Source: Daphnia pulex (lineage: Eukaryota; Arthropoda; Branchiopoda; Diplostraca; Daphniidae). From it: 64,000 bases of DNA. The DNA lies in assembly GCF_021134715.1 (NCBI RefSeq), contig NC_060026.1, positions 186,001-250,000 of the forward strand, read 5' to 3'. The notes under the pieces were generated by a model that did no database searches, was not told where the DNA came from, and worked only from the letters and a program-made list of their open reading frames with translations. This document shows, one piece after another, positions 4,188 to 60,081 of the stretch; the first letter of the stretch is position 1, and every line of letters begins with the position of its first letter. The position numbers and the translations under genes were made by a program.

Positions 4188-4960
4188 GTCAACTAAATAA
4201 GGTGTTTTTCTCTTCTAGTTGTTAATCTTTCTTCATTAATAAGTGACACTAGGCAGTTTTCAATTGTATTAAACCCCGTCAAAAGGTAAATAATCAAGCA
4301 ATCATTTACATTGATTTCATTCTGATCACATTATTTGTTGGTGTCATTCAATATTAGGAATAAAACAGATAAACTGTGTCATAAAACGAAGAAGAAATGT
4401 CAAGATCGACTGGTTTCACTTCTAGTTTTTAATCTGTCTTCATTAATAAGTGACACAAGGCAGTCTCTAATTGTATTATCTCGTCAAAAGGTATATAACT
4501 AAGCAATCATTTACGTTGATTTCATTCTGATCACATTATTTGTTGATGCCATTCAATATTAGGAATAAAACAGTTAAACTGTGTCATAAAACGAAAGAAG
4601 AAATGTCAAGATCCACTTCGTCAGACCTCGCCAAGGGGAGAAAATTGGCAAGTCATCTGAGAATAAATTAATATCAATAGTGTAACTAACTAACATAAGG
4701 TGTGTTTTTTTTTCACTTCTAGTTGTAAATCTTAATTCATCGAGACACTTTAAGGCAGTCGTCACTTTTAAGTTACCCTGTCAAAAGGTAAATTAAATCA
4801 TTATTTATTTGTGTTGTTCCATCACTTTAATCCGATTATTTGTTGGTGTCATTCCATATAGAAATTGAAGAATAACAACCAGAAATAAAAACAAATCAAA
4901 TTTGGATCATAACAAGGCGAATAAATGTCGAGATCGGGTGCGTCATCGGACCTCGCCAAG
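4188..4960 (+). repeat. Triplicated 5' UTR exon plus start exon of ankyrin gene A
   Basis: Three diverged tandem copies (about 4188-4412, 4413-4690 and 4691-4960) each carry the same layout: CTTCTAG acceptor, a roughly 65-bp UTR exon ending CAAAAG|GTA, a short intron with a CATTATTTGTTG block, an acceptor, and an exon with ATGTCNAGATC. Copy 3 opens the full ankyrin gene at 4925. Copy 2 (ATG 4603) matches the first 14 or so codons (MSRSTSSDLAKGRKL) then stops after 22 codons. Copy 1 (ATG 4397) stops after 11. The copies could be alternative promoters or decoy starts, or remnants of tandem duplication. Confidence 0.85.
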
Positions 4961-20700: not shown

Positions 20701-22207
20701 TCAAGTCAGCCCTGGACAACACTGGACTGACGTCGCTGGCGTCTGAGCTCAAGATCCTGATCCATCTGGGCTTCCATTTGAACGTCGTGAGTCTTCTAGG
20801 AGCCTGCACCAAAAATCTCATCAAAGGCGAGTTGATGGTCATCGTGGAATTCTGCGCCTACGGCAACTTGCAGGACTTTTTGATGACCAATCGCAGCCAT
20901 TTCATGAACGAACTGGACGAAGAAGGTGATCCCTCACCCGTCTGTCAACAGTAAGTCGACCCAACCCGCATTCAAATGTTTGAAATGAGCCGCTTGATAA
21001 AGATGATGAATGATAGGAAAGCTGCGCCTCAGCTGGTGCCTCAATTGATTCAAAATATTCATAACATGAATTTGAGCTCGACGCCGGAGGAAAGCGCTGC
21101 CAAACCGACCCCACCTGCTCAAGTTCCCAGCGGCAACAACAGTTCGGATTACAAGCCTCGCTACTGGTCGCCCAACAGCAGCAAGAAGGAGGAGTCCCGC
21201 AGTCCGATCGTCTGCACTCACGACCTGATTGAATGGTCCTACCAAATCGCCTGCGGAATGAACTACTTGACTAAGCGAAAGGTTAAAACACTGTCGTTTA
21301 AATTGGTAAAGATAGCTCTGTGACATTTATTTTTACCCCAAGGTGTTGCACGGAGATTTGGCGGCCCGTAATGTTCTGCTGGCCGACGACAACATTGTCA
21401 AGATCGCCGATTTCGGACTGTCGCGCCAAGTCTACAAGAATTGCAACTACCAGAAACAAGGACAAGAAGCTCTGCCTGTCAAGTGGATGGCCATTGAATC
21501 TCTGGTCGATCGAGTCTTTTCTTCCAAGTCGGATGTTTGGTCCTATGGCGTGACCATTTGGGAACTCTTTTCACTCAGCAAACAACCCTATCCAGGTATA
21601 CTGTTGTTCAATTTTAGTTGCTTTCAAAATGAATTATTTTTATGTTTGGACAGAGGTGAATGAACTGGCGGAATTGATCCGCTTTCTGCAAAGTGGCCAG
21701 CGGATGGAGAGACCGGAATTGATGCCCAGAGTCATCGGCAACGTCATGGCGGATTGCTGGAAGCACAATCAGGAAGAGAGGTTGACATTTGCTCAATTGG
21801 AGGAGATTTTGGGCGAGATGGTGACTCCAATCATTCGCCAACGTTTCGCCGGTGCGGAGGAGGTGGAAGAAACGAATAATTACATGCAAATGAACAAAGA
21901 AACTGATGGGCACAGTAATGCTGGGGCAGCAGAGTCCATGCCCGACTATTTAAGGATGAACAGCACTGGCAAACGAGAAGATTCTCCACCATCAAATGCT
22001 CCCACTTCATCACAGCCTCCGAATGTCCCTCTCAAATTGTATCCGAAGTTGAGTGTGACGAATTACATCAACACCAGCACAGAAATCAACACACCTCCGC
22101 AAACGCCGATGGCTTACGCCAATATCGGAGGACATGCGCCCTTGTCTCCCACAGAGAGTCTTGCAGACACCAACTACTTAGCCATGTTACCTGCCGGACA
22201 AGTTTGA
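17719..22207 (+). CDS. VEGFR/PDGFR-like receptor tyrosine kinase, 1152 aa
   Basis: Sixteen exons: 17719-17785, 17847-18011, 18079-18249, 18322-18506, 18590-18761, 18838-18998, 19068-19248, 19318-19503, 19584-19772, 19840-19970, 20035-20322, 20399-20546, 20608-20950, 21017-21281, 21343-21595, 21654-22207 (3459 nt in frame). A signal peptide (LVLLVILLGQCC) is followed by several Ig-like domains with YxC motifs (GIYQC, GYYTC), a transmembrane helix (about 599-625), then a split kinase: GAGQFG loop (about 684), VAVKM, a 90-residue insert, HGDLAARN (about 886), ADFGLSR and PVKWMAIESL. HGD replaces the more common HRD. The insert and Ig ectodomain place it with the VEGFR/PDGFR class (Pvr-like in arthropods), acting at the plasma membrane in growth, migration or haemocyte signalling. 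The ligand is not visible. Confidence 0.92.
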
Positions 22208-27782: not shown

Positions 27783-28761
27783 GTTGGACTGACAGTAATT
27801 TGAAGGGAGTACATTTCAGAAGTTTTGTACGAGGAAGCAACGCGGTGCTGCCGAACAAAGTAAGAACATTTTGTACAATTTGTCTACTTCTTAATTCTCA
27901 TCGTGATGATCTCTTAAATGTGCGAATGTATTTTTTCCCTTCAAACCCATCCTGTTTTACACTAAACAAAATTAGTTTGCCTTGCAAAATGATGATACGA
28001 ATCTTCTGTTTTATCCGGTTTTATCGAGCGTTTTGTATTTCTTTTAGTCGAAATGACTGGAAACAATGTAATTACTGAAATAATTAGCCATTAACTGAAA
28101 TAAGTTATTATACGCCTATACGGTGCGTTAATGGTGTGATATAAATATGCAAAATGTAGCGGCCACTCTTTAAAAAAGATTATGTCGGAACATTTTGCTT
28201 GTATTTGTTTAACGAAGTATCGCCGACGAAAGGCATAAGGGATCAATATGTGTCTGGTCTCCACGTCTCTTCGCACACATAGAACGTTTTTTTTTTTTTT
28301 TTTTTTTTATCGTTAACACTGCTGTTCTCTCCGGGATCTGTCAAGTACAAAACTACGAATATGTATACTTGAACGAAATTTTTAACTTAAAATATATATT
28401 TGTTCTTTGTTCGTAAGTAGACACGTAGACAGTTTAGTGTTATCATTTGTAGAATAATCCATGAAATGGCATCGCTAGTCTTATCGTTTTTCTTACGTTT
28501 TATTTGACTTTGGTGGTTAGTTATTACGGATTGAATTCCCCCTTATCACCTTCTCTTTTTTTTTTAGTTTTTCATACGATATTTCGTAAGTTTTTAGGAG
28601 CAGTATGAACCGGCTTTCAATTTTTACTTTTTATTACAACAGGCGTATAAACTGTTATATTGGACACAAGTGGAACATGACCTTTTACAATGCAGATCAG
28701 CAAATCCCTTGACAACTGTTAGTTGCAAAACCCAAGATGAACGTCAAGTGTAAACCTTTAG
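27783..28761 (+). promoter_or_regulatory. 5' leader of the giant SecA-like gene
   Basis: Two untranslated exons are suggested: one ending at the donor AACAAA|GTAAGA (27859), and one from the acceptor ACAACAG (exon from 28643) to the donor TTTAG|GTAATA (28761). The second holds two short upstream ORFs and then the ATG used (28737). A 22-bp T tract lies near 28288-28309 in the intron. Confidence 0.45.
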
Positions 28762-31700
28762 GTAATACGAATGATGCCCTAAACTTGAACTGATAGCGTT
28801 TATATTTTAGTTTCCAATGCTCACCGTATTGTAGGCCTAAGTAGAAATTCAGTATTAATTTCAATGCTTTTTTTTTTAATTGCACTTATTCGCTTAAAAA
28901 AGGTTCACCTTTAAAAAAAAATTTTTGTTTTCTTTTTTAGGAATCAAGGGAAAAGCGGGTTTCGAACTTGATCGCCACCGCATAGAAATCGATACTCAAG
29001 AAAAGAATACCGACGCTTTGCGTGAGCATTTAGAGAAGCAATGCGCCGGTTTAACGTCGAACCACAAGAATGACGACTTGACAACCGAAGAGTCGCTCGT
29101 CCTGAGTCTTGTCCAGCATTATTCTTCACATTATTGGCTCAAAAGCCTAGACTATGCATCGCTAGCCGTTATGAAAGGCTTCGAATGGCTTGACGAATCG
29201 ACCTGGAACAAGTTTCGAGCAACGATTGGTATGTCAGAAACCATTACCGTTAAGCACGTTGGCGAGTTATGGAAAAGATTTCACCACTTTTGGTTTCATC
29301 AACACCCAAAGAGTTCTGTCCCTCAAATCATTTGCTTCGGTTTTGATAAAGGCTTCAAGTTGTCACTGTCATCAACTCGTCCACTCACAAGGTACTACTT
29401 GTGGTACGACGGAGTAACAAAACGTTTCGACGCCATAACTTGTCTGTCAAACTTTGATCAAGACACGGCTTCCTATTGGGAATGTCTGATGTTGCGAACC
29501 GAAATTTGTCTTGACAATTTTTTCGAAAGCCAATTTGACGATTTATCCGACGAGATGCTGGAATCACGATTCTCGCAATTGAACGATGAAGTCAAATCAA
29601 TCGGAAATGAATTTGATTCTTTTAAGCGACAGTTTAGAAAATGGAAAATTGGCAAGGAATTCGACCACTTGGTTTTAGACATGGACAATTGCATCCAATC
29701 ACCGGACGAGGATTCCAAGGATTCCGCCTCGGCGTGGTGTGAGCAACTTTGGCAAGTCACGGCACGCTGTTTGTCCCGTCAAATGGAGCAGGGCTACATC
29801 GACAGAAAGAGGAAAATTGAGATGAATCGCCGAGTAAGAAATAGCGAAATCGACAAGATCCGAGAGAACGTTGAACGCTGGAACTGGGAACTTGCCAAAG
29901 CCCGCCAACGCAAAAGCGAACTAGATCGACGCGTGGCTGACGAAACCCAGCTGTTGGAAAAATTAGCTTGGAGTCAATTGCTGCTCGATTTGGCCAATCC
30001 CGGCTTTGTTCCCGACTACAACTTGGCTTGCCAACGCCAAGATCACGAAATCTACCAAGAAAAGAATGCTCCCCAATTAGCCGTCAAGGTTTTCGACCTT
30101 ATACATCCTCCAACGTCTGCTAATAAAGAGAAGCGGGCCGCATTAGAGAAATACGTGAACAACCCGTCAAATAAGAATCAGGTGCTGAAAGAATTGCACT
30201 CGGCGTTGGACGAATTTGTAGGACGAGAAGTCGGTAGTGGAGTTACACACAATCAAGTCTTAACTATTAAAGGAGAAGCGAGTGTCGTGCTGAAGAAAAT
30301 TGCATCGTCGGTAGAACTTGGCAACTGCAGAGAAATCGTCATCAAAGCGGAACGAGTCATCTACTTGGATTGCGACTGGACAGTGGCCGGCGTCAGCGTG
30401 AGCCTGATGGCTCCGCGCATTGAAATAATCTGTTCACCCGGCAACAAAATCCGGGCCATAACAACGTCGGGTCGTGATGGCAAAGAGCACGAGCATACGA
30501 AAGCAGCCGACGGAAACGGAGCGGGCGCCAGTGGAAGCCATGGAAAAGCAGGTCAAGATGGTGAGAATGCCGGAAACGTCAAGATTGACTGTCAAAGTTT
30601 CATCGGTCGTTTGAAGATTGTGGCTCACGGTGGAAAAGGAGCAGACGGCCAGGACGGCGGTGACGGCCAACCCGGCCTTAAAGGACAGGATGGAGCTGAC
30701 GGAAAATTTCCCAGCGATCAAACAGAAGAATCCACTTGGCATTATTTGTATTTCGGCACCAAATTGTACGCAAGCGAAGGCTGGCCCGGATCACGGGGTG
30801 GAGATGGTGGATCGGGAGGCAACTGCGGCAAGGGCGGACGAGGTGGGCTCGGTGGCCAGGTGCATTTTGTATCATCCCATCGTGATCGACCCACCGATTT
30901 ATCTCAATTCATCGAACGAGACTGTGCCGATGGGCAGAATGGCAAGGACGGCCAACCGGGTCGTGGTGCTCCGGGAGGAACGGGCGGCAAACGCGGACAA
31001 GACGCGGTTTTGTATTTCAAGCCAGACAAATCATGGTCATACATTTTGAAGGGGCAGTGGCGACGTCACAAGGGTTCCCGAACCGATCTGGATAAGATCT
31101 ATCTTTTGAATATAATAATGGGATACAAGATTCGTGAAGATAGTTGTCCAAGGAGGCAGCGTGCTGCGGAAGGCAAATGCGGAAACGAAGGCAAAATCCC
31201 CGTGGCTGATCATCTGCAACAGAGAGAGCACTCTTCTCGCAACGCAACTGCTGATGTTGCTTCGAAACTTGATAGTCTTCGTCAATCAGGAAGCGACGAA
31301 CGAGAAAGGCAGTTGGAGGCGACACGTTACGATGAACGGGCAAATGAAACGGAATCCATCAACCGAATAGTCGAAGAGCGGAATGTCATTTCACGTCACG
31401 AAGAAGCGCTGGCCGTCGATCGCCAACGGCTCGAGCGGCTGGACGAAATCTGCCTGCGCGTTCGATCAAAAATGAAAGAAACATTTGAGCAACGCATCGT
31501 TCTTCAGTCCGTTGTCGGCCAAAGGATAACGAGACAGATGAAAAAGAATTTCGAAGACGAGGATCTCGGCCTTTATGCTTCCGGCGGTGTCGCAATAACG
31601 GATTTTCGGAGAGATATTCGATCCGGTCATCCGGTTTCAGATCAACTTGCAGCGGCAATTCGTTGCTTGGCTAAACTCGATGCTTGGATCAGCTCCCTTA

Positions 31701-34700
31701 TGATGGGCAAAGACGACAACAACAAGAATGTGCTGCCAATTCTTCGGACAGTTCAATCGCTCGTCCTCAACTTGAGTCTCGATGACCACGAAAAAGAATG
31801 GAATTCCATTGAGAAAATTTTCAACGAAATGTCGAGCGATCCGCTAAAATTGGCCGATTCTCTGAAATTTATCGGATCGAATCTTCGGTTGATTATATCA
31901 CTTGCTGACCAGTCGCCGGCGACGGATTTGATCAAAAATCTCGAGAAATTTCTGGCAACGACTGGCCGCAACCGAGAAGCTGCAACGAAAAACACCATTT
32001 GTGTATTGCACGAATTCTACCAGCACCCTATCGAATTTAGAGATGTCATTAATTTGCTTACACGCCCATCTGACTGTGACTGGACCCAGCAGAGTGACAT
32101 TCGATTGGGCCTCTTTTTCGACAAATGGCTACTTTCCGTCATAACGAAAACAATCTTTGAAGTTTATGATGATGAAGAACTCGGTACATCAAGGGCCAGT
32201 CTTTTCACCAAAGTTTGGCTGCAATGCTCACCGCTGTCGAAGTGGACCAGGTCTGCTACTTCATCGGATGCTGTAGAAAAATGGTTGAAGCAAGTTAATT
32301 TTTTATTCTTGAACCAACTTCAATGTTCAATTTCGAGTCGTGACGAGGTATTTATATTTTATATATTATAATTTCATAGAGAATTTGAATTATTTTATTT
32401 TTTTTTAGAAAAACAATGTCTTGCTACAATTTGCTCGAAAACGGATCGGAATACCCCAAGACTTATCGACGATTGACGACACATTAAAGAGATGGCAATT
32501 GGTTTTTGTCGTGAATCACTTTCAACCGGAAGTCAACGAGATGGACGCGATCGGCAAGTGGGCTCGCAAAAAGAGCGATCGCCACTTCATGGCGTATGTC
32601 GAAAAAGCGTTCAGTGAGAGATTCATAGCGCCACTTTGGTCCGAAATCCAGTCGCTTTTGAAGGAGAATCTCCCCGAAGATGCCAACAGCGGAAAGGTGA
32701 ACGAGGACATTAGAGAGGCGATCAATCGGCTGGAAACGACAATCCGTTCGTCGTTCACCAATTTATCGTTTCACGAACGATGGAAGTTGGGATGTGATTT
32801 AAAGGAAAAACTTGATGTATCCTCTTATGAAAAAGAACAATTCTCTGAATGGATCAAACAACAGTCGATTAAAGCGTCAACGCAGTTATTCTTACCAAAC
32901 AAAGATGATGCTGACGATGAAGTGGAAATTATTTGGTCTCTGCTGGATGGTTCAAACAATTTAAGAGAAAAGAGCTTGGAATTGCACTACCGTCTGAGTC
33001 ACCTTACTGATGCGTCGTTCAAACCGAGTCAAATCGAGAAAATCGCTGGGATTTTGCTCAACGAGTCGTCCGATCGCTCAGTCACCGACGATTTCAACAA
33101 TTACCATTGGCACTGCTTCCGGTCGACGTTCCTTGAAAATTGGAGCAACTATTTCTTCTCGCATTGGAGTAAGTGCCATCAACAGACGGAACGTTTTCGT
33201 GACAGGGTCGCCGACAGAAATCCCGAAGACGACGATCGAAGCTTAAACTCTTTGGAGTTGGCCCTTGAACGATATTTGCTTTTCACAACGGGTCTGCCAC
33301 CGCTGGATGCCGTCGAAAAATGGCGTCAACTCACGAACCTGCCTTTGCTTAAGAAACGCACCGAATTCATTGCAAAAGATCTCAAAGGAGCCAGTGAGTA
33401 TCAATAAATTTTTAAAGGAGTGATAAATGATGCTTAAATTTTTATTTTATTGCTATACAGTCAAGGAGATCAAATCGACAGTTACTCCAAGAATCAACCA
33501 ACTCTATTCGAATCTATTTTTGGACATCACAAATAAAGGTAATCCTGTTCATTTGCCAGAGAATTACATGGCCAGAATTATTAAATGAATTAATTGTTTG
33601 AATTTAGAAATGAATGCCGACACAAACATCGTAGCTTTGACGGATGCTTTGTTTGAAATTATTTCAAGAACGACAATTTCGTTTTTCGATGATGCCGAAT
33701 CGGTTCGATCGCTAGTCGACGTGATCGAAGCAGTTCAATTGATGATATACCTGACAAATGACGATCTCGTTCAGCCAAATAGCAACAGCCAGGTGATATC
33801 TTCAGCTAAGCTCGGCGAATGGAAAAAGAAGTTGGTCCAATGGAAAGACATTGATCGGGAGGCGGCATCTGTGGTATACTTGGCCGCCAAAGAATTAGTT
33901 GAAGCCGCCGAATCCCGGTCATCAAGTGGGGACGACTGCAGCAGAAAAATCTACGAGCGCATTGCCGCTCGTCGTCGAGATATGTTGCACACGTTCGATC
34001 AAGCGCTTTCCTGGTTGGAGACGTTTGTTGGTTATTTGGCCGATTCCCGCTCCGGTATCGACACGCTCACGGTTATCGAAGCAACGATTGCCTCTAGCCA
34101 GTTTCTCAGCTGGAACAAACTGAAAAATGGTAAAACGTCTCTACCCCAAGTGGTAACTGACATTTCGACGGCATGTAATTTAATACCAAAACCCGATAAA
34201 ATCAGCTGGAGCTCTTTCTTTGGCGCTATTTTAAACCTTAAATGCAGTGAGGTACGTAAAGTAGCTACGTCTAGTTTCATTTTTTAAAAGTATCCTTTTA
34301 TCTTAATTCTGAATGGTGAAATAGAAGACAATTTGGCTGATTACAACATTGGCAAATTTCGTCGGCGGACAACTGAGCAACGAACGAGAACGAGCAACCT
34401 GGACTGAAGTGAAAGGTTGGTTCGATGGACTTGAATCCCTGATAAATGACACGAAGGAGATGAATGACACATCTCCTGCTGCTAAAAACCACTGGGAGGA
34501 GATGATGAGAATCCAGCAAGTGTTGATCGATTATTGCCACATTTGCTACGAGATTAAATTGTTGACGGATCAGGAAAAGCGTTCGAAGAACAAGATGGAC
34601 TTGAACCTCGTGTGCTTCACTTTTAAAAATGTCGTCGAACTAATGACTAATATCATCCGACTTGTGCGGTCAAAAAAGGAAGTTTCCAGCAGTCGACAGC

Positions 34701-37700
34701 AGGGCAGCCAAACTGAATTTCTGATGGATCAACTGGAAACCCGCCAACTTGTCCTAAAGTCGTTGATCCAACTAGGACAATCCGATTCCTTTTATTGGGA
34801 TGAAGAAACTGTTCATCGATTTTTAAAAGACTTTTTATTCCCAGGTAAATTTAAAGTACTCAAGTTTTACAAATTATTATAACCATAATTTATTTATTCC
34901 ATTGAAGAACTCAAACCATCACCTGATGAATTATGTATCCTGTCAAATATGCTGGTGAGCGGACCTCGAAAGGCTTTCATCGAGCGATGGATATCCCTGG
35001 AAAGCTGTTGGGAGCCGGAACGAATTCGAGTTTTGGTCAAGTCGCTCCAGGACAAGAATCACAGCCTAAATGACGCCCAGTTATTTTTTTCCATCGACGG
35101 TTACGATATTTTCAACGAAGAAGAAAAATCGTACATCAATTTGATTGACGATAATGCGGCGGTGGAGAGTTCGCTGCTGGTCGACGGCCAACATCCGTCC
35201 TGTTTCTTGGACGCGTTGCAGAAATTGGCCATTGAGCGCATCCGAGCCGAGTTTGTGCGCTGCTTCGAGCCGTCCATTACCGTCCAGGACATGGATCGTT
35301 ATTTACCAAAGCCCAGCAAGGATGGCACTCTATGTAGCCAGGGAACTTTAGCAGACAAGCAGCACATCACCCAACTTTGTCGATCATTCAATCGGTGTAT
35401 CCGCACGAAGATAGAACAAGGCGAAGAACTGCTCGATTGGCTCCATTGGATTCGTGAAGTCGTCGTTCCTTCACTGAAATCATACGAGGCGGAACAAGGA
35501 TTGTCCGTCCAGCAGATAACCAAATTCTTCGAAGATGCAGAAGAATTTCCGCTCGACTTGTGTCGATACGTCACGACTAGAAGCCGACCTCACCAGTGGA
35601 TCGACATGCTCGCCATTTTCGCCATTAAGGAATTATTCGATCAACTTATCGAGAAGTGTCGTGAGGACCGAATAAAAATGAAGAGTTCCGATATTGTCGA
35701 ACAACTGGTTCAATGGTGGACATCGTCCGGAGCACCAGCGTCGTTTTTGCACATTTTCCATCACAAGATTCGGCAGGAAATGGCGGGCGATCCGCACGAG
35801 TTTTTGACACTCGTTCAAGAGTTGACCAACAAATTGACGGCACTTAAACTTCATTCTCTGCTACACGAAGACGTCATATTGGGCCGTTTCTCCAGTGCTT
35901 CTTTGAACGATTGGCCGTCAGTGATACGCTACGTCCAGCTGGCCGTTGATTGGACGCCCGACCTTGCCCTTCGCCTGACGTCTGTACTCGATGTTCAATT
36001 CGGGCAGGAAAGAACCGACCAGTTTCTTCGTTTGATCGTTCATCGCCACCCGGAACTAAACGATAAGTCGGACGATGATAAAACACAATTGAGAAACATC
36101 CTGAAGAATTTGATTCGATACTCCTGTATTAATGATCGATGCATTGCCTTGATCGATAATAGTTTGCAACAAGACTCGATTGAGGTTAGTGATCCGTGCT
36201 GGCATTCGCTGTCTGATTCGGATGTCATCGAAACAGAGATGAGTAAATCGAGTAGAGTCGATTTGAGTGTCGAGAAAATTTTGACCATCATGAGCCAAGA
36301 TTCCGAGTCGAGCAAAGTCATCGGCAATAGCAGCGAAATGGCCCAACGGATCACACGCATCCGGGAAGAAGCCAAGAAAATTACGAAAATAAACGTTGGA
36401 CAATGGACTAAACAAATCAAGAAGAAGAGCGACGAGACATTGAAAGTGGACGACTTTCTGTCCGTTGCTTGTCGGGTCGTTCAGGATAAAAAGGGCTACT
36501 TGCCGAGAGACGTTCAACTCATCGCAGTCGTCGCTTTCGTTTCTTCCGATGATCAACAGCAAGCCGGACGGATGCCACGACGGATGGGACAAATTTCAAC
36601 CGGCGAAGGCAAAACGCTCATCTCTGCCCTGGTAGCCATTTACCACGTCCTGTGTCACTGGAACGCGGATCGGCACGTCAACATCATCACGAGTTCTCCC
36701 GTGCTGGCCGAGGCCAACATCGCCGAAATCGGGTGGCTCTTCCAATCGTTTGGCGTGAGCGTGAGCAACAATTGTGACCAGAAATGTTCCAACGATGAAG
36801 ATGTTAGGCGGGAACGATACAACAACGACGTGATTTATGGCGACCTGAGCAGTTTCATGCGTGACATTCTCCTCACGCGCTTCTTCGAGGACAAGGACGT
36901 GACCCGCAACCGCAACCCGGGAGCCATCATTGTCGACGAAGTGGACTCGATGACCCTCGACAAAGGTATTTATTCGCGATTATCGATTAAATAATTAGAA
37001 AATAATTATTTATAACTTAGGCGAAAATGTCCTGTACTTGTCGCACAACATCCCCGAAATGTACAATCTCATGGGCCTCTTTGTTGAAATTTGGACGTTG
37101 GTCAACGCTCCGGATGTCGTCCGTTTGGCCGAATCGAGTGACATTGTCGATGAAATTCGCCAGTTGATTGAGCCGACGCTTCCAACTTGCGTTCCCAATG
37201 GAATAAAGAAATTCGCCGAGCGGCAATTGCCGGCGTGGATCAAAAGCGCCTTCCGGGCTTGTTACCTGCTCCAACCGAACGACACCTACAAGGTGGATGA
37301 CTGCGGTGACGGCCAAGGCAGACGGATCGTCATCATGGACAAGGAGACGGGAGTGGAGCAAGTGCAGACCGAGTGGTCGGACGGATTGCAGCAGTTCTTG
37401 CAGTTGAAACACGGCCTGAAATGGACGCCCATCTCTTTGAAGGCCATTTTCATGTCCAACATTGGCTACTTTAGCGAATTTGAGGGCCGCATGTACGGAC
37501 TGACGGGCACACTCGGTTCCACGGCCGAGTGCGACCTGCTGCGCCATGTCTTTGGCGTCGATTTTTTCCGTTTGCCGCGATTCCGGCAGCGCTTTTGCAT
37601 CCAGCACGATCCGATCACCGCCCACAGTCGGCAAGATTGGCTGGATCAAATGCAGCAGGTGGTCGCAAGCTTCGCTTCCATGTCCAATCACAATAGACAA

Positions 37701-40700
37701 CGGGCCGTTCTAGTCGTTTGCGAAAATGTTGAATTTGCCGATTCGGTTTACCAACGCCTTAAGCCGTCCGATCAAATTCAAGTCGTCAAATACGTCAGCT
37801 CATTCGACAAGGCCTTCAAGAATTACCAAGAGCAAGAAATTCTTCCCGGACAGGTGATCATTGCCACTAACTTGGCCGGTCGGGGTATGGATTTAAAGCC
37901 AAGCCAAAGTCTCGTGGACAACGGCGGTCTTCATCTGATAATCGGATTTGTTCCATCAAATGCCCGCGTCGAAGCCCAAGCCGAAGGACGAACAGCCCGC
38001 GCTGGCCAACCCGGAAGTTTCCAGTTTGTCATCGAGATGGTGAAGGATGAGAATCGTGATGACCCTTACGGCCGAATACTTGAGTTGAAATCGAAGCGCG
38101 ACGACGACGAACGGCTCCGATTGGACAACATCCGACGAGAAACTCTGCCAAAGATCAAACTGGAAGAGAAACTCTTCCACGAATTCTACAAGAAATGCGT
38201 CGCTCCATTGGAGGAGATTAAGTCGCACTTGCATTTACAACAAGAGATTAGAAAGATAAAGAGGAGTTGTTTGAATAATCGCTGGGCGCTGTGGCTCGAT
38301 GAAAATTCCGGCCTCATCGAGAAAGCCCATCGCGATCCGGTGGTTGACGTTAATCTGAACAATAGTTTCGATCTTCTAACCATGTCGGTCCAATATTCGG
38401 ACGTCGAGTCCATCGTGTCCAGTCCGAGCGAATGGATGATGCTCGCCCGTCACTACGAGGAATCATCACTCCCAGACAAAGCGGCAGAGTGTTACAAACA
38501 AGCGGCGAGTTTAGAACCCAATTGGTGCGAAAACGCCCTGCTCGATGGCGCCCGCCTCGTCCTGGCTAAAAGCGCCAATTTTGAAAAGAAAATGATTGCC
38601 AAAGGCTATTTGAAACGGGCGCGCCAATTGATTGACAATCGAATCGACGTGCTCGTCAGTCTCCACCAACAAGTCGATCAATGTTTGAACAGACAAATGG
38701 AACGCGGATCGGCCCTCTGTCACAAGCGGTTTGAAGAACAAATCAACAATCAAATCCGTTTGTGGCGGATTCACTCGTCCCAAATCGACAACCTTCTCGG
38801 CGTGCCGTTGAAAAGGGCCCTAGTTGCCGTCCTGCCCACCGAAGACATCGATCAAGTCATCGACTTACTCGTAAGTATCAAACAACTTGACAGCTCAACT
38901 ATCAGAATGATGGAATTATTTCCAATAATATTTAGGGGGATTTTATGAAGCCACGCCGCTATTCGAAAAAAGCTGAGAAAAGGTCATTCGATTGGCCGCC
39001 GTTTGTCGCCCACTGCCGTGAGCCGCTCATGGAACTTGTGAAAAATGGACAAAATTGCAAACTGTCGGATTTCGAGAACGCGATCGGCCAAGCGGAAACA
39101 AAACTTTGGACGAGTTTAATCTCCGTTTATATCGACATTGGCAAAGAAACTGGCGGCGGGAAAATAATCAAGGCTCATCAGGACGTTGGTCTAGAAATAC
39201 CCGACACCATTTTACCAAAAGGTTACCGGCCTATTTTGCCCGGTTGGTTGAAATGTCATGACGGCCAAGATTTTTCGCTCGTTTCCTCCACACTTGGTCT
39301 CGACGACGACGACCGGCAATTGAAAGACCTGGAAAAGTGGCTGGAAGATAAACAAGTGCTGCAAGTAGCGGACAACTGCTTTCGTCATCGACTTCTAAAA
39401 CAGATTCCATCGATGGACGAGGATCCCGACGCTCAACTGGTGGAAGGTGTGGCCCTCTCGTCTTGCGCCGATGTTGTGGCCTCTTGGTTCTCTTCGCCCA
39501 TTGTTGAAACAAACGGAAATGAGTACGTTCTTCGGCCCCTTTTCGATGAGCGCAAAAAGAAATTGGCCAAACAATTCCTCGATTACCTCATTGACGTGGG
39601 TGTGGTCAAAGATGGGGCCATTCAATTTCCGTCAGCCAGAATTGAGCGATCCAGAGAAGAAATGAAACAAGATTTCGATGAGATCAAGAGTAAAATCGAT
39701 TCTCTTGATGATTTGAACCGGCTCGCTGAGCTCTTTTACGGCACACATAAAAAAGTGGAAAAGAAGAAAGAAGACGTGAAGGCGTTAAGCAATTTGGAAC
39801 AAAGCATTAAGGGATTGCTCCCACCGACCGTGTCATCCCTTGTTCTTTCTGTTGCTAATGATGTTTCAACTGTTTTTAGTCATTTGAATGAGATGAACAG
39901 ACAACGTCAAGAGACTAATGCTTTGAAAGAGAAGAAGGGAAAACTGTCGACAGCGCTCATGCAAGCCATCGGTATTCACCTCGGCCAGCTGAAAACATTG
40001 GCACAAGTCAAATCCTCGTTCTGTTCGCTGCACGCCGCCCTTCCGCAACCCGGCGACGACCTTTCGAGTCCCACCGACGAGGTTCATCAGTTCAACAATC
40101 AACACTTGGATCGTGTTCTCAAGGTGGATGAGCACGTGTCACGATGGGATTGGCGGATTCTCGTCGTCGCCCTGATTGGAGTTGCTCAATTGGTCGGCGC
40201 CATAGCTTTCCCTTTCTTCAGTGTGAGCCTCGTTGGCGAAGGCATCAACGACTTGATGTTTGCCTTTCAGTGTCTCCAGACATTGGGATCCTTCTCCTGG
40301 AAATCCTACCTCGTGAGCAAGGGCATAAGTTTGGCGCTAACTGCCGTCACGATGGGACTAGGAGCTACCCGGCTCGTATTAACATGTGGTAGTTACAGAC
40401 TAGCGGCCGAAATTATTTGTCGATTTAACGGAACACTCAATGGATGGTGTCAGGCCGGCAAGCAGGTCTTGCTCCAGTGCGCATACATCATTAAGTCGTC
40501 CATCGTCGGCCAAGTTGTTAGCCGCTTCCTCACGTGGCTCAACAAGTTCATCCTGGAACAGGTGCTGGAGCGCATCAAGTCGTCCTTGTTCAACAACTCG
40601 TTTCTACGTCCAGCTTTCACTCTGCTCAAAGATTCCATGAGATCCCTGATGACTGCCATGGTCGAAAGCGGCAAGAGCGCCAGCGAAGCCAGCCAAATCA

Positions 40701-42373
40701 TCCTGCAAGTGCTGAATGGAGCCAAGAATAAATTGGCCGCCGGTGATTGGTTCACCGAACTTCGCACAAACGCCTCATCCATCGCCAGTCGCATGATGCG
40801 AATCTTCAATGACTCGTCGGCCGGCTTGTCTAACTTGCAGGGCAGCTACGTCAGCACTCGAAATACCCAAGGCATCACCGCTAACGCTGGTACAATTGAA
40901 ACGGCCATCCAAATGGCCAAGAGTGTCATTGATTATGGCAAAAAGGCGGCTGAAGTGGCCGAAAGAATCAACACGTTTACCACCACTTGCCAGACGGTCA
41001 CGAAATTGGCCACACACGGAACGACGTACGTCGGTGATTTGAATGCCGCCCTGCAGGACGAGCTGAGGGCATTGAAAATGAAAAGTCAGCAAGGGCAGGA
41101 ACCAGCAGCAGCTGGCCAAAGTAGTGGTGAATTATCCAAAGAAGAAGCAGAACGATTCGAGGAATTGATCGATGAAACCGAGGGTGAAATTCAATCGTCG
41201 ATCATGAAGACAACTCTCGACACGATCCAAACGGCGTGGCTCCAGCCCATGATCCAACTCAAAATCGAGCAACACATTTCGAAAATCGGCTCCAAACTCG
41301 TCAAAAAATACTGTCCATCTTTGTTACCGGAAGGATTTGACAACAAGGGTGATGAAAGTAAAAATAGCGGGGACGACGATAAAGAAATACCATCCGAGGA
41401 TGGATGGATCGATGACATGGGCAACGGCAATAAATTAGCCAGGCCGATCGAAATGCAGAACTCGGCAGACGCAAATGGTTGGGTGTTCGAATTTGAAGAT
41501 GAAACCGGCCAGTATTCGCAAGGAACTCAAGGTGCCAACACCGTCACCTACTATCCTGATGGCAATCCTTACTCGCAAAAGCCCGTCCTTAAAATGACTT
41601 GCACGCAGAATAAGGAAGGGAGCACGCAATTCCGTATTACCATGCCCGATGGAGAGATTCGTGAATATGTGCCGAATCCGTTGGAACTTCCTGGCCGCTG
41701 CTTCTTTGGCGCACTTTCAAAGGCTCAAAACGATCCCTCGATAGATTATACGATTCAAAAGTTAAAGAATCACGCCAAAGGAAACGACCGAGTTCGATAT
41801 ATGAACAAACTGGGAGTCAACCAGAGCTACAAACCGTCCAATTCAAATTCCAGGATGATCGATGGGAAAACAACACTTCCTAATGTGCAAATTTCAACAG
41901 ACGTTATTAAAAAGAAAACGGAGAGACAACAGGCGCGTGACACGGAATCTAATTTAGAGAAGATAAGAAAAGATGATCCAGGTATCCAACAGGAAGATGT
42001 ATACCATGAATCGCACGATTGTGAAGTTGTCGAAGAATTTTGGAAAATTTCTAAAGTAACACGCGAGGGCAATATCTATGTCGAAAGAGTATACGGCGAG
42101 AGTGCTGACAAGTTTTACGAAGAAAATCAAGAATATGGGTCGCCTGAAGCTATCACCAGGAAGATCAAGAATCACTACAGAATTCACTGGAAACATACTA
42201 GCGAGACACTGGAGTACGAAACAACAAATTATAAAACCAAGGATATCAAGTACGATATTTTTACTGGGTCGCCGAATCATCTGCAAAACAAGTACCACAG
42301 AGGCTTCGTTTCCAACTGGAATGGACCCCAGGGGGATAATCAAAAACAATATAACTTAAGTAAAGAAGACTGA
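28737..42373 (+). CDS. Giant SecA-like DEAD motor protein, 4334 aa
   Basis: Nine coding exons: 28737-28761, 28941-32347, 32409-33393, 33461-33538, 33608-34251, 34325-34844, 34908-36965, 37021-38870, 38936-42373 (13005 nt, open throughout). The layout is: coiled-coil segments about 295-345 and 790-860; a Gly-rich collagen-like region with GxDG/GxxG repeats about 518-698; a long helical region; SecA motor with Walker A TGEGKT (about 2450), DEVDSM (about 2561), a SecA-type insert, GRMYGLTGTLG (about 2730), IIATNLAGRGMDL (about 2851) and EGRTARAGQPGS (about 2892); TPR-like WMMLARHYEESSLPDKA (about 3042); a hydrophobic stretch about 3594-3671; a charged C terminus with RCFFGALSK (about 4110). SecA is the bacterial preprotein translocase ATPase; animal versions are rare and uncharacterised. 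There is no signal peptide, so it is probably cytosolic. Function unknown. The 25-nt first exon is the weakest part of the model. Confidence 0.88.
30470..31010 (+). other. Collagen-like Gly-rich segment of the giant protein
   Basis: About 180 codons with frequent GKDG, GQDG, GQPG, GRGGLGG and GGTGGKRG motifs, interrupted by two non-Gly blocks. The Gly-X-Y register is imperfect, so a true triple helix is unlikely across the whole segment. It follows a beta-rich stretch (IVIKAERVIYLDC, VSLMAPRIEI) that could be a beta-helix. Confidence 0.75.
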
Positions 42374-51020: not shown

Positions 51021-51731
51021 TTAAGAAATTTTTGCCAATATGCATTCTTGAATGTCACCCAACAAAGATGGACATTCCTGTTCCACCAGTTTCCATTTGT
51101 CTGTCGCCATCACCCGTTCTTTGTGTCGCCGGAAGTAGACGGCCGCTTCTTCCTTTAATTTCGCCAAATTGGGGAAATCGGCCTGAAGGAGAAGTTCGAG
51201 ACAGTTGACGGGAGTCATTTTGTAGAGGAGAAACAGTTCGCACTTGTCCTTGAGTTGATCCAGCAGATATTTATCCGCCGCGATGAACAGGGCGACGGCC
51301 ATCGTTTCCATGGTCTCTAAACTCAGTCGGCCCGTGTAGATGAAGCGCAGCAGCTGCTGGAACACGTCCGGCTCGACATCTTTGATTTCAATTTCGTTGC
51401 TCAACTTTTCTTTGGTCTCGTGCTTGAACATGGCCGCAAACACTTGGCATCTGGTCACTAAAATGAGTTTGTGGGCGGGAAATGGGCGGCCTCCGATTTT
51501 GAAAATGACGTCGCTGTTCTCCATACTGTCGAATAATTCTTCGAACTGAGTAGCCAATCCGTCGCTGCAGTTGAGTGCAATACCTGCTGGAGGATTGCTG
51601 GACGAATCGGGTGTCTTTCTCACGAGGGTACCGGTAAGAATCTCACAGCTGAAAGTGAGACGACCTGACCGATCGACCAACTGTCGACATTCAGATTTGA
51701 GCATTTCACATCCGGCCGGACGCGATGCCAT
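51021..51731 (-). CDS. BTB/POZ half of a MATH-BTB (SPOP-like) protein
   Basis: A 236-aa frame. It contains the end of a MATH domain (SGRLTFSCEI) and a full BTB domain (ENSDVIFKIGGRPFPAHKLI, FIYTGRLS, AADKYLLDQLKDKCELFL), then a BACK-like helical tail ending DIQECILAKIS. SPOP-type proteins bring substrates to cullin-3 ubiquitin ligase. The frame continues upstream into a MATH domain after a single TGA (51740-51738), so this may be the surviving half of a pseudogene or a shortened protein from an internal ATG. A near-identical copy begins at the right edge of the window. Confidence 0.75.
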   Translation of the reverse strand: MASRPAGCEMLKSECRQLVDRSGRLTFSCEILTGTLVRKTPDSSSNPPAGIALNCSDGLATQFEELFDSMENSDVIFKIGGRPFPAHKLILVTRCQVFAAMFKHETKEKLSNEIEIKDVEPDVFQQLLRFIYTGRLSLETMETMAVALFIAADKYLLDQLKDKCELFLLYKMTPVNCLELLLQADFPNLAKLKEEAAVYFRRHKERVMATDKWKLVEQECPSLLGDIQECILAKIS

Positions 51732-53467: not shown

Positions 53468-54497
53468 CTGACTGTGTTACACAGCCCAGAATGTAGCCGA
53501 TCCTACCAAACTGTTGTCCCCAAGACTGCTGCTCTCTTAAATGCTGTCTAATGTCCAATCCAGAAATAACTTTTTTCAACAAATATAAATCTGGTGGTCT
53601 AGACAGAATTACCAGGGATTGCACTTCAGCTTCCGAACTACAAATAGATCTGGACATCAAACAATTCTTCCTCGAGGAAAAATAATCAATATAAACATTC
53701 GAGATGTTTCACATCATCTCACAAAGTGCGCTTTTCACACTTGCACGTAGTTGAATATTTTTTCTCTCTTCAAGTTTTCCTTAGAGATTGATTAAAATCG
53801 TAACTGGATGAGAGATCATTTTATCTTTCTCTTCGCCACCAGTGCTGGCAACAATGCTGCTATAGATCTTGATATTTAAACGTTGACTATTTGAAACTGT
53901 AATCGGCCGTAATCGTGCATGCGGCACGGCTGTCTCATAGAACTGATACGAACTGATATAACCAATAAACCATTCATAAAACACTGGCACTTGCTGGCGG
54001 GCTTCATGACAGCGTTCTCCAATGTAAAATGTGTTTTTAGTTAAATTGGCATTATTAGCTTCTTCGTTGATGTCTGATATTCCGTTTCTTTTCCCTATGC
54101 AGTCACGCTGGAAGTTATCTCCGTCGCGTGCCTCCCGCCTGCAGCCGAGTTCGATTGATGGTCGTACGTTCATCAGTATCCGGATGATCCTCATTCGCTC
54201 TGATTTGAGAATCATAGAGACTCATTCCAGAAAATCCTCGTCGCTGTTTCTCCAGTTCGGATCTTCGACATGGTGACCGAGCTGTCATTGCACTTTCAGG
54301 TTAGTTTTCACTTTTCACCGCATTTGTTTCTTTCTATTCCGCTGTTCCGTCCTGCCCAGTTGCTTCAACTTTATCTATCCGAATTGATTTAGTTTTTTGG
54401 AGATTTTGTTTAAATAGGACTAGAACACCTCAGACTAAGCTTTTTCTATGTTTATAGGGAAATTTATGGCATTTTTTTTTCTAATTGTGGTTTATTC
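53468..54497. repeat. Segmental duplication block, copy 1
   Basis: From CTGACTGTGTTACACAGC to near the 3' end of ankyrin gene B, this matches 60419-61370 in the same orientation, with small insertions and deletions. Both copies keep a plus-strand exon-like unit (here 54103-54299) ending ATGGTGACCGAGCTGTCATT...CAG|GTTAGT. Confidence 0.8.
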
Positions 54498-55688
54498 TTG
54501 AATGTTATCACTTTGTTTTGTTATCACTTTGTCTACGAGCAATTTCTTCAGCTTTTTGAATTCTTTTTTTGGAGCGTTGCCCCACCTTTGCACGGCAAGT
54601 TGAAGTGGTGATTCGCCGTTGACGTCGTTGACGTGGATTTCAATATTTGCTCCTTTTTTTATCAACATTTTAATTTTCTCCAGTGAACGCGTGTAAAATG
54701 CCCAGTGCAGTGGAGTATAGCCATAGTTATCGACTTTATTGACAAATTCTAGATTATTTACTTTGTCAAGGAGCATTTTTAATGTATCAGTCGTACAATT
54801 TGACAGTTTTGCTGCTAGATGAAGTGGAGTTTCACCAAAAGAATTTGCTGCATTTACCGAATCCGGGTGTTCTTCCAGAAGTTGTCGCAACTTTTCTTTA
54901 TCTCCATCCCCTAAAGCCTGTCGAAGCAATACGTTGATTGCGTTCTTATCGTCGTTCTGAATGGAATAGTTCATGACAGTCTCGTCATCCAACCCAGGCC
55001 GTCCAATAACAGTCGATGATAAACAATTAAATGCTCTCAGCTTTTTGTACCCGACGGGTGGTGTCCATTTTCCCCCTTCTGTGTTCAATTTTTCAAAAAC
55101 AAACTCCGCAAACTGCCAACAATTGGACAAAAACAGATGGTATGAAAGGTAAATCTGACCAGCATTCCAAAAATATCTTAGTAAATTTTCAAGTGTTCCT
55201 TGGGCCGGAGCACTGGTTTCTACTTTCACTGTTTCAAGTCGCGAGATATTTTGAGTTTTTGTGTTGTCGTAGATGTACTTGGTGACGTCCTCTTCGTAAG
55301 GAGACTGTTGAAGAACAATATCTTCTCCATTCTTTTCAAAGGACCACCACATTTGTTTTTGTTGAGTGTCTTCAGTTTGAAAAACCGCGTAAGTGTGAGG
55401 TATCCATTCTGGAGTGTCATCCATTGGACAGGAGTAGACGTGAACGTTGATGATTTTGTCAGAAAGCGCGTTTTTCAAAATGTCGAGATTTGAGCCCCTA
55501 GTTGATGAGGCATAATACGTGAAATACGGATCGGAAAATTTCACGTCCAAGATGAAATCCTTGAGGAATGGATCAGTTATTTCGTGCTTGGTTTCGATAT
55601 TGAGGTCAACGTACTGGACGTACAGCAATTTTCCGCTGGACTTTTTCCCTTTTGCCAAGTCCAATTTGTTTTTCATTTTAGAAAACAT
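54492..55688 (-). CDS. Ankyrin-repeat protein B with N-terminal permuted papain-like domain
   Basis: A 398-aa single-exon product and clear paralogue of the gene at 4925. Shared features are DLAKGKK, LLYVQYVD, His98 in HTYAVFQTED, WWSFEKNGEDIVLQQSP, and Cys190 in LSNCWQFAEFVFEKL. Three to four ankyrin repeats follow (GETPLHLAAKLSN, YGYTPLHWAF, GESPLQLAVQRWG). It lacks the expanded array and hydrophobic tail of gene A, so it may show the ancestral form. The strictly kept His and Cys between diverged copies suggest the fold, and perhaps the catalysis, is under selection. Substrate unknown. Confidence 0.85.
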   Translation of the reverse strand: MFSKMKNKLDLAKGKKSSGKLLYVQYVDLNIETKHEITDPFLKDFILDVKFSDPYFTYYASSTRGSNLDILKNALSDKIINVHVYSCPMDDTPEWIPHTYAVFQTEDTQQKQMWWSFEKNGEDIVLQQSPYEEDVTKYIYDNTKTQNISRLETVKVETSAPAQGTLENLLRYFWNAGQIYLSYHLFLSNCWQFAEFVFEKLNTEGGKWTPPVGYKKLRAFNCLSSTVIGRPGLDDETVMNYSIQNDDKNAINVLLRQALGDGDKEKLRQLLEEHPDSVNAANSFGETPLHLAAKLSNCTTDTLKMLLDKVNNLEFVNKVDNYGYTPLHWAFYTRSLEKIKMLIKKGANIEIHVNDVNGESPLQLAVQRWGNAPKKEFKKLKKLLVDKVITKQSDNIQE

Positions 55689-57591: not shown

Positions 57592-60081
57592 TCAATGCAC
57601 TTCCTCCATGGTAGACAGCTTCTGTTTGATTTCGTTTTCTAGCAAGTTCAATTTTTCAGACAAGTCGTCAATGGCAATTACTGCTGGATGGTTGTTAGTC
57701 CAGGAATTCACCAGGGAAACGATTTCAAACACGACCATACCAAAGTTGAGTGCTATAAAAGATCCCTCAAGGACTTTGCCAAGTACGGTCGCCCCAGTCC
57801 TGGCAACTGCAAAGATATTCTTGACGGCTGCTGTTTCGACTGCGGTGAGCTCGCTCAGCGTTTTAGTGATGACGTAGGACGTGCCTCCTGTGGCTGTTGT
57901 GGTTAATGTGCCGACGGATTTGGCAATTTCGATTGTTCGGTACAGTTCACCAGCCATTGCGAAGGCGGCCACATTTCCCTTGGCACTGTGGGCTAGCGCG
58001 CAATTGCCAAGTTGTTGTAATAGGGAAACCGACCAATTTTCGTCCAATCCGTGGCTTTGTTTCAACCACTGGACGATTGTCCAGTACTGGGCCAGACTCA
58101 TTTCTAGTTCCTCGAAGCGCTTTTGAAGACTAGAAGCTAAATTGGTGATGGTCTTGAGATATCCTTTGGTCCAAATTTTGTCAGCCAAATCGGCGCCTAC
58201 ATTGACACCCGTTCCGGCCACAGTGGCAGCCAAGCCACCAAATGTCAACACTAAAGACACTCCTCCAGTCACGAAAGCCAAAGCACATCCACCTTTGAAT
58301 GAATGAAAAAATATAATCATTTTAAAATAAAATTAATTGAATTATTCGTTAGCCATATCTTGTAATGTGGTCATTTCGGTTGAATTTTGGTCATTTTTAA
58401 TTTAGTGCGCATGCTGGGCTTTTCCATACCTATAGCCAATCCGACACCGACAGCGTTAGTCGCCGTTCCCACTGTTTTGCTAATGTTGATATCCTGTTGA
58501 AATTTCTCCACCTCCATTTTCAGATCGCTTAGCGTTTTTCGAATATTGTCGACATCGGTCAACATGCATTTCATTTTCGCTATGGCATCGTGACGTGCCG
58601 TGGCACCTTGAGCAAGCATACGGGTATCGTTATTCGCCATTCTCTAAAGGATTGTCAAATAAAAAAGATGAATTAGCGTTTATTATGCACAAGCAAATGA
58701 TGTAGATGTAAAAAAAAATAACTTTGAGTCTGTCACGGTGTTGTGCAATGGAGATTTAGTCGCGAATCATTACATAAACTGTCTAAATACATCATCATAA
58801 CTTGAAACTTAATTTTAAAAGTCTACTGTGTTACGTATTGTTATTGGCACGATACTTCCATAGGATAATAACAATTTCGTAGAGCTGTTGGCCAGCAACG
58901 TTAAGACAATAGTATAGTGTTTTCACTTTTCTTCCTTGCTGGAACTCTATTTTTAAAACCCTCTGCGATCAATTCTATATGCACAGTCAAAGACAGACTG
59001 ATGACGTCATGCGGCACTATGTTGTTTCTTACTTCAACTTTGTCACTTTTTTTCTTTTTGAATTAAAAAAACAAACAAACAAAACATAAATACCAAAATG
59101 TCTTTTGTCTCCTGCAGCGATTTCGTCGGCATGACTGACAACTCATCGAAAAAGGACTTGAAATTCGTCATTCCGTTTTTCCATTCATTGGGTGACATGT
59201 TGTCCTCTTCATCTTGGTTATTAACGTAAATGGCGCCGTTGTTGAATTTTTGATAGCACGGCAATCCCTTGGAGTCCGTCTGACAGGCAAGTTTGGCCTC
59301 TTTGATGGCATCCAAGACTAGTGGTTTTCTTCCATCACAAAAGGTGACGAGGAATCGGATATTTTCTTTAACGCCATTGGCGAACATACCATCAATCACA
59401 CTGAAAATGTATTTTTGCGATTGCGTGAGACGGGCCAGTGGGGATTGGACGACGAAGCCGACGGCTTCCAATTCCTTGTTGATAAATAAGCATATCAACA
59501 TTATCCATTAACGAAATCAATTTTCTCACTGAAGATCACAGAATGAATTTAAAAAAAAGGGAAATAGACGCTACCTCGATGCCCTTATCATCTTTAAAGA
59601 GCTGTTCGATTCCCGAAATGATTTCCCTTTCTCGTGCAATTCCTCCGGTGTCGCCAAATCCCGGCGTGTCGACGATAGTCAGCGAAAATGGAATGCGGAA
59701 TCCGTCTTGACAGTGCAGGTCGTAGACAGTGACTTCTTGGGTTTGACTGTGAGCTTGCGACCCTCCTCTGACCTCTTCGTCGACGAGAATAAAGCGGAAT
59801 GGATCGTCCCATTCGACACCCAGGACGTAATTGACCATGGCGTTGATCCACGTCGTCTTTCCCGATCCCGTGGCTCCCATCAACAGAATTGTTTTCTTCG
59901 TTTGACATTTTAATTGGTTGGGTTTGCCGAAAGAGAATCGCTTGACTATGGCGGATGCCTCCGAAAAGTTGGAGGAATTTTCCAATGGTAATTTGCACAA
60001 CTTCATCTGATTCTCGTGTCTGAAATCGGTGCATTGATGTGCGATGGAAATGGCCAGTCTCTCTGTTCTTAAGTGAGACAT
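57592..60081 (-). CDS. AIG1-like GTPase fused to ApoL-like domain, 600 aa
   Basis: Four exons (60081-59575, 59474-59094, 58643-58430, 58292-57592) join in frame to 1803 nt. Residues 60-300 form a P-loop GTPase: GATGSGKTTWIN (69), a switch segment, DTPGFGDTGG (138), then FVVQSPLARLTQSQKYIFS and LVTFCDGRKP, as in uncharacterised animal relatives of AIG1/GIMAP. After TKSLQETKDIL a coiled coil leads into Gly/Ala-rich hydrophobic helices (VGTATNAVGVGLAIG, VTGGVSLVLTFGGLAATVAG) and a long helical tail, like apolipoprotein L. Nucleotide binding could drive membrane insertion. The 450-bp third intron is long for this locus, so two genes remain possible, but phase and family alignment support one. Cytosolic, membrane-active; an immune role is inferred. 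Confidence 0.75.

Follow-up and report, generated by a model that had tools for sequence, protein, structure and literature searches.

A giant Daphnia protein with a SecA-type motor core, a conserved hydrophobic module and an OTU-like domain, from a family shared by animals and intracellular bacteria

We analysed a window of 64,000 nucleotides of the Daphnia pulex genome (contig NC_060026.1, positions 186,001 to 250,000 of the forward strand, assembly GCF_021134715.1), and focused on a gene on its + strand that encodes a giant SecA-like protein (28737..42373; all positions are those of the window). According to the splice model, the gene consists of 4,334 codons with a single terminal stop, in nine exons (28737-28761, 28941-32347, 32409-33393, 33461-33538, 33608-34251, 34325-34844, 34908-36965, 37021-38870 and 38936-42373). 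The eight introns are GT-AG, frame-compatible, 55-179 nt long and 71-90% A+T. The model was predicted from the DNA, and intron 1 was picked by eye. It is supported by a Daphnia pulicaria relative (P0001), since this protein has a similar start (MAVKCKP.. against MNVKCKP.. in the window) and aligns with residues 1-3920 at 78% identity. The last part of P0001 differs from the window protein, which may be a gene-model problem. An earlier reading of the sequence had described an intron-bearing animal gene of 4,334 residues, and our model agreed with it.

We observed that the five SecA motor motifs reported in this sequence-only reading were all present at the claimed places, in order and over two exons, and chance was excluded as an explanation. 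The first part of the motor (amino acids (aa) 2411-2572; 36479..36965, +), which was matched by Pfam and by solved chains, contains TGEGKT (36599-36616) and DEVDSM (36935-36952). The second part (aa 2573-2925; 37021..38078, +) contains GLTGTLG (37497), ATNLAGRGMD (37863) and EGRTARAGQPG (37983). In the hidden Markov model search that had been proposed as a check, SecA_DEAD matched over its cut-off (E 1.8e-22), as did P-loop_SecA (2.9e-8), DEAD and Helicase_C. The PPXD (SecA_PP_bind, PF01043) was a weak match in the second part of the motor, just under its cut-off (E 2.9e-4; 21.9 bits against 23.5). A phmmer search against solved chains (E <= 0.001) gave 24 distinct sequences, every one a SecA (best 3.2e-27). 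The best chain aligned from NBD1 through the middle region, including the PPXD region between the ATPase domains, up to residue 531 of 765, and all 24 stopped at or before residue 589.

The window protein thus has NBD1, the middle region and NBD2 in the same order as bacterial SecA/SecA2, but is 4,334 aa long as against about 900 aa, and the helical scaffold with its two-helix finger, the helical wing and the C-tail were not recognised by sequence comparison with the solved SecA chains. In two relatives, P0061 and P0013, the best SecA stretches ended by residue 588 of 762-814, or 743 of 1,118. An NCBIfam scan of the same two proteins (not of the window protein) scored them at 77-190 bits, while the cut-offs of the SecA models lie at 725-1,493. 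As the solved-chain matches stop early and the relatives score low, we take the window motor, by its sequence, to be a SecA-type core and not a housekeeping-type SecA. The description of the motor as 'complete' therefore held for the ordered NBD1 and NBD2 motifs, but not for the scaffold and wing. Motif V was also unusual, with Met in the window protein (GRGMD), while Thr (GRGTD) is found in 104 of the 109 homologues in which the motif could be located (one each has L, M, K, A and P). These belong to the best 120 of 490 homologues found in a region-restricted search, which are used throughout (P-numbered); the candidates were restricted to 0.55-1.75 times the query length, so that large size is partly built into the set.

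The closest named relatives among the 120 were from Daphnia pulicaria, D. sinensis, D. carinata, D. magna and Moina. Other named homologues came from Artemia, mosquitoes, bees, ants, Clytia, Mytilus, bdelloid rotifers and Stylonychia, and the named bacteria were Wolbachia, a Tisiphia endosymbiont and Parachlamydia; many others were unnamed metagenome proteins. We also scanned prokaryotes with an NBD1 alignment (one genome per species, 84,980 species, two exact patterns), which gives a lower bound on the counts. At least 14 loci were found: 4 in Legionellales, 5 in Rickettsiales (including one Orientia and two Rickettsia endosymbionts), 3 in Bacteroidota, 1 in an alphaproteobacterium and 1 unclassified. 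With these two patterns, Wolbachia, Tisiphia and Parachlamydia were absent from the 14. Ten of the 14 genomes were searched for a separate housekeeping-type SecA, and seven had a match of more than 300 bits. Two Legionellales loci (L042 and L043; frames of 1,041 and 1,023 aa) group beside housekeeping SecA and were rejected as giants. Motor and module were also present in frames of 3,555 and 3,557 aa on two IMG/VR contigs filed as viral (L065 and L067).

A phylogeny with bacterial and animal homologues, also suggested earlier, set the motors of the giants apart from housekeeping SecA. In a tree of 75 rows, 67 split (100/99) from six housekeeping SecA proteins together with L042 and L043. The D. 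pulex genome has 12 places with a SecA_DEAD match, including the window gene; copy C4 was represented in the tree only via its relative P0010, and C5 was left out. The window protein paired with P0001, and next came C12 and C2 of its own genome, all in a Daphnia/Moina clade of 14 rows, two of them unnamed (100/100). This clade was nested in a group of 33 rows that also includes Parachlamydia, Adineta, Tisiphia, Stylonychia and metagenome proteins (100/99). A further six copies of the genome (G000:C10:968360, C11:1329842, C7:1985165, C7:2095111, C7:5619256 and C3:2501758) clustered with insects and Wolbachia in a clade of 16 rows (99/88). Since the genome has copies in both clades, Daphnia, as judged from the tree, holds two lineages of SecA giants. 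Finer placement is unsafe because of the many long branches. The idea of a singular animal invention is not supported, the gene being one of 12 such places and its family occurring in intracellular bacteria as well. Three side observations concern this tree and these copies. The motors of P0076 (Artemia franciscana) and P0082 (Chilo suppressalis) were joined by two Wolbachia proteins in a clade of four rows with short branches, which reflects either recent transfer or contamination. Copy C2 (L021/L022, G000:C2:7136843) has about 6.7 kb between its matches to window residues 2244 and 2243, either a large insertion or a long intron. The SecA_DEAD match at G000:C5:2028940-2029902 contains three in-frame TGA codons.

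SecA is regarded as the motor of bacteria and plastids, and we know of no SecA-driven process in animal cells. The earlier suggestion that the window motor is not engaged in bacterial-style secretion is probably correct, since no scaffold is recognisable, the protein is extremely long and its place in the tree is separate from housekeeping SecA. The giant SecA family itself is published and is not new. In its accessible parts, the account of Duplouy 2013 includes a large Daphnia clade among the eukaryotic secA giants, notes that the family is shared between eukaryotes and intracellular bacteria, and argues for transfer from eukaryotes to Wolbachia (PMC3639933). The eukaryotic-type giant secA, wBol1_1092 of Wolbachia and the SecA of the eukaryotic association module (EAM) of phage WO resemble the window protein in giant length and in the SecA domain, occur like its family in Daphnia, insects and Wolbachia, and stand apart from housekeeping SecA (PMC3639933, PMC5062602). 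The window gene, however, is in a different clade from the two Wolbachia proteins in our tree. As far as the accessible parts of these publications go, only the SecA domain of the giants is described (PMC3639933, PMC5062602).

When the C-terminal exon was aligned with relatives, we observed a conserved hydrophobic stretch C-terminal to the motor. Within this module (about aa 3590-3690; 40136..40438, +) lies the most hydrophobic 19-residue stretch of the window protein, as is the case in 16 of the 20 proteins examined, and ten of the module's columns are invariant across 12 diverse sequences. A profile built from 15 branchiopod-type seeds (14 of them among the 120 homologues) matched 116 of the 120 proteins at a domain E of 3.5e-6 or better (102/106 without the seeds) and none of the 120 reversed sequences. 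The four not matched (P0066, P0095, P0103 and P0108) have C-termini 442-831 residues past the last motor motif. A median of 749 residues lies between the last motor motif and the module (10th-90th percentile 635-899; 111 measured), and a median of 654 between the module and the C terminus (450-851). A search with the module of P0064 gave seven proteins including P0064, every one with SecA_DEAD. The module was present in 9 of the 14 bacterial loci, three of these being weak (iE 0.003-0.018), and in two of three IMG/VR contigs; among the five bacterial misses, three leave the contig and two are short frames. In D. pulex, it was matched in 7 of the 12 places (one weakly), and within the second lineage only in C11 and, weakly, in C7:2095111. 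A genome scan with a subset of five module sequences gave 159 pattern matches and no confirmed relative. At E <= 0.1, Pfam recognised nothing in exon 9, so that at this threshold the module does not count as a Pfam domain.

Downstream of the module lies a putative OTU-like, papain-fold domain (about aa 4012-4148; 41402..41812, +), in which the catalytic His site precedes the Cys. Both residues were present in 72 of 86 family members. In the branchiopod-type set (n=18), the Cys was present in all and the His in 16; the exceptions were own-genome copy C8 (Arg) and the window protein, which keeps Cys4111 (41699-41701) and has Gln4087 (41627-41629) at the His site, leaving the pair incomplete. An OTU-like domain, and not a nuclease, was the common end of the giants. 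The top match of its predicted fold was EschOTU, the permuted OTU deubiquitinase of Escherichia albertii (6w9s), with a modest Z; Foldseek on the predicted folds of exon 9 and of its end gave no significant match. We therefore call the domain OTU-like on the profile, the motif and the VIA rank combined. EschOTU shares the His-before-Cys order, but is the effector domain of a much smaller construct, whereas the window domain belongs to a giant and has Gln for His (PMC7396840). In the accessible parts of that 2020 report, the permuted order is described as seen only in EschOTU (PMC7396840). On the bacterial loci, the first-round profile gave a best value of 0.11; the iterated profile matched L035 and L037, and no reversed sequence. 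The Cytophagales giant L037:3566-16150 had a second match at residues 1011-1114, far from the tip (iE 2.8e-4).

The C-terminal tip of the window protein (41813..42370, +) occupies the place of Endonuclea_NS_2 (PF13930) in Daphnia relatives and appears eroded in comparison. Five of five relatives scanned end in this family over its cut-off (E down to 1.6e-11), these five having been picked for a listed PF13930, which 11 of the 14 branchiopod-type proteins in the list bear. The window protein had no Endonuclea_NS_2 match in Pfam at E <= 0.1 and none to the nuclease profile of its relatives. The GH..LGG..N motif, shared with Endonuclea_NS_2/EssD and present in most branchiopod relatives, was not intact in the window copy, and the nuclease part was mostly under a model confidence (pLDDT) of 56 in two predicted models. 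The branchiopod tip profile matched 13 of the 120 proteins, namely its 12 seeds and P0006; being mostly seeds, these matches indicate absence elsewhere at that sensitivity and not spread. For the tip of D. magna, the best solved match was EssD of a type VII secretion system (T7SS; E 0.022), which we take to be a nuclease toxin. Endonuclea_NS_2 was also found over its cut-off outside the SecA places (G000:C10:12379253 and G000:C8:13318451). The earlier statement that the flanks are unrelated to bacterial SecA was right in that they are unlike housekeeping SecA, although the module and the protease-like domain also occur in giants of bacteria and of other eukaryotes.

Within the D. pulex genome, the OTU-like profile matched 6 of the 12 places and the nuclease profile 3 (C2, C4 and C12). 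Both copies that lack the protease His (window and C8) also lack a detectable nuclease. We estimated the ratio of nonsynonymous to synonymous substitution (dN/dS, Nei-Gojobori; dS 0.32-0.83) for the window copy against C12/C2. For the motor, as far as encoded by exon 8, it was 0.19/0.23; it rose to 0.44/0.52 directly behind the motor and was 0.29/0.24 for the module, 0.25/0.30 for the OTU-like domain and 0.70/0.65 for the tip. Between C12 and C2, it was 0.17, 0.82 and 0.62 for the motor, the part just after it and the tip. The low value for the OTU-like domain is at odds with the lost His; it may reflect the time before the loss, or a retained binding role. The window protease is probably a non-catalytic binder by now or on its way out. 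Since the nuclease tip is eroded as well, the motor and the module are what selection most clearly keeps.

Other features are less distinct. A weak, single TPR-like match lies 3' of the motor (38430..38522, +; PF07719, E 9.5e-4, 19.6 bits against a cut-off of 27). Exon 2 had no Pfam match; a glycine-rich, collagen-like stretch (aa 441-700; 30236..31015, +) was matched locally by giants from ciliates, a cnidarian, rotifers, mosquitoes and unnamed sources, at E values of about 1e-5 to 1e-19 that are possibly inflated, the low-complexity filter being off. Nearby frames in the window (4925-6979, 21629-22207, 51021-51731, 54492-55688 and 59536-60081) match ankyrin, kinase, BTB and septin-type families.

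By sequence, then, the giants combine a SecA-type ATPase core with a conserved hydrophobic module. Most of them also have an OTU-like domain of papain-like type whose His precedes the Cys, and those of branchiopods have an added nuclease tip. We tentatively favour, at somewhat less than even confidence, the reading that the window gene is a host-encoded member of a cross-domain giant family whose proteins are membrane-held SecA-type translocases with a linked OTU-like protease. It is preferred because the motor, the module and the protease are constant in the family and the nuclease is not. The module would anchor the protein in a membrane, the motor would unfold and thread a polypeptide through ATP hydrolysis, and the protease would act on ubiquitin attached to the client being threaded, or close by. 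A threading ATPase working with an OTU protease has an analogy in Cdc48/p97 and Otu1/YOD1, which cooperate in trans; the ATPase type differs, and the likeness is one of analogy only. A role in the conflict between Daphnia and intracellular microbes would fit the company the family keeps. More doubtful is the proposition that such one-polypeptide machines form an undescribed class, have passed between intracellular bacteria and hosts, and act in animal cells as membrane-attached polypeptide translocases directed by ubiquitin.

Two alternatives weigh against the membrane-held translocase. The first, unlikely in our estimate but serious, is a captured toxin-like effector, in which motor and module would carry the C-terminal tip of the protein itself over a membrane and the protease would free it. 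Daphnia would have retained this machinery, while its tip was altered or lost. It would account for the Endonuclea_NS_2 ends of the branchiopod relatives, for the match of the D. magna tip to EssD (only E 0.022) and for the joint lack of His and nuclease in the window copy and C8. Single homologues also carry PF14411, PF15538 and PF14113, presumably toxin-type families. SecA-like domains inside giant toxins are already in print: as far as the accessible text goes, giant actinobacterial toxins bear SecA-like ATPase domains as a predicted secretion aid (PMC8195603), and Amoebophilus effectors have C-terminal Otu peptidase or SecA-like domains, with toxin domains in Daphnia (PMC3482391). This likeness is one of description. 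However, polymorphism of the tips is limited (a single-linkage cluster, one of 16 in total, takes in 79 of 110), the common end is the OTU-like domain and not the nuclease, and several copies are retained in an animal genome.

The second is a live option for the window copy alone, which may be decaying or repurposed. That the gene is in decay, or is what remains of an expanded family with almost no function left, seems rather improbable to us. The Gln for His, the eroded tip, the Met in motif V, the 78% identity to the D. pulicaria model and the three TGA codons of copy C5 are in line with decay, but 4,334 codons remain open over nine exons. The motor also has a low dN/dS in its exon-8 part, though much of this history may predate any decay, and is 88.5% identical to D. 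pulicaria as against 66-68% for the module and coil.

Still less probable is a motor of helicase type that works on nucleic acid, for instance in defence. DEAD and Helicase_C are over their cut-offs and relatives have a nuclease tip, but all 24 solved chains matched are SecA, aligned through the region between the ATPase domains, and PADLOC gave no family at E <= 0.01 in the two relatives tried (P0013 and P0061, not the window protein). We saw no positive evidence for the nucleic-acid translocase suggested in the sequence-only reading. Contamination or an endosymbiont insert can be set aside as negligible, the evidence against it being enough in practice: relatives are present in intracellular bacteria, but the gene has eight spliceosomal-type introns, adjoins frames of animal-type families, sits on a contig of 16.3 Mb (the whole genome has 133 Mb in 13 contigs) and has a similar gene in D. 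pulicaria within a Daphnia/Moina clade.

In the literature searched (mostly without subscription papers), we found no account of the constant hydrophobic module of the SecA giants, of their OTU-like domain with its His-before-Cys order or of the nuclease tip of branchiopods, which does not prove that these features are unreported. In animals, ciliates, rotifers and intracellular bacteria alike, the giants retain a SecA core, almost always accompanied by the module and mostly by the OTU-like domain. If the OTU-like domain is real, the His-before-Cys order would be common and found in animal-encoded proteins. The family offers a starting point for experiments on the 'eukaryotic secA' genes that have long been known from phage WO and arthropods and, if the translocase reading is true, a protein-translocating ATPase could join animal cell biology.

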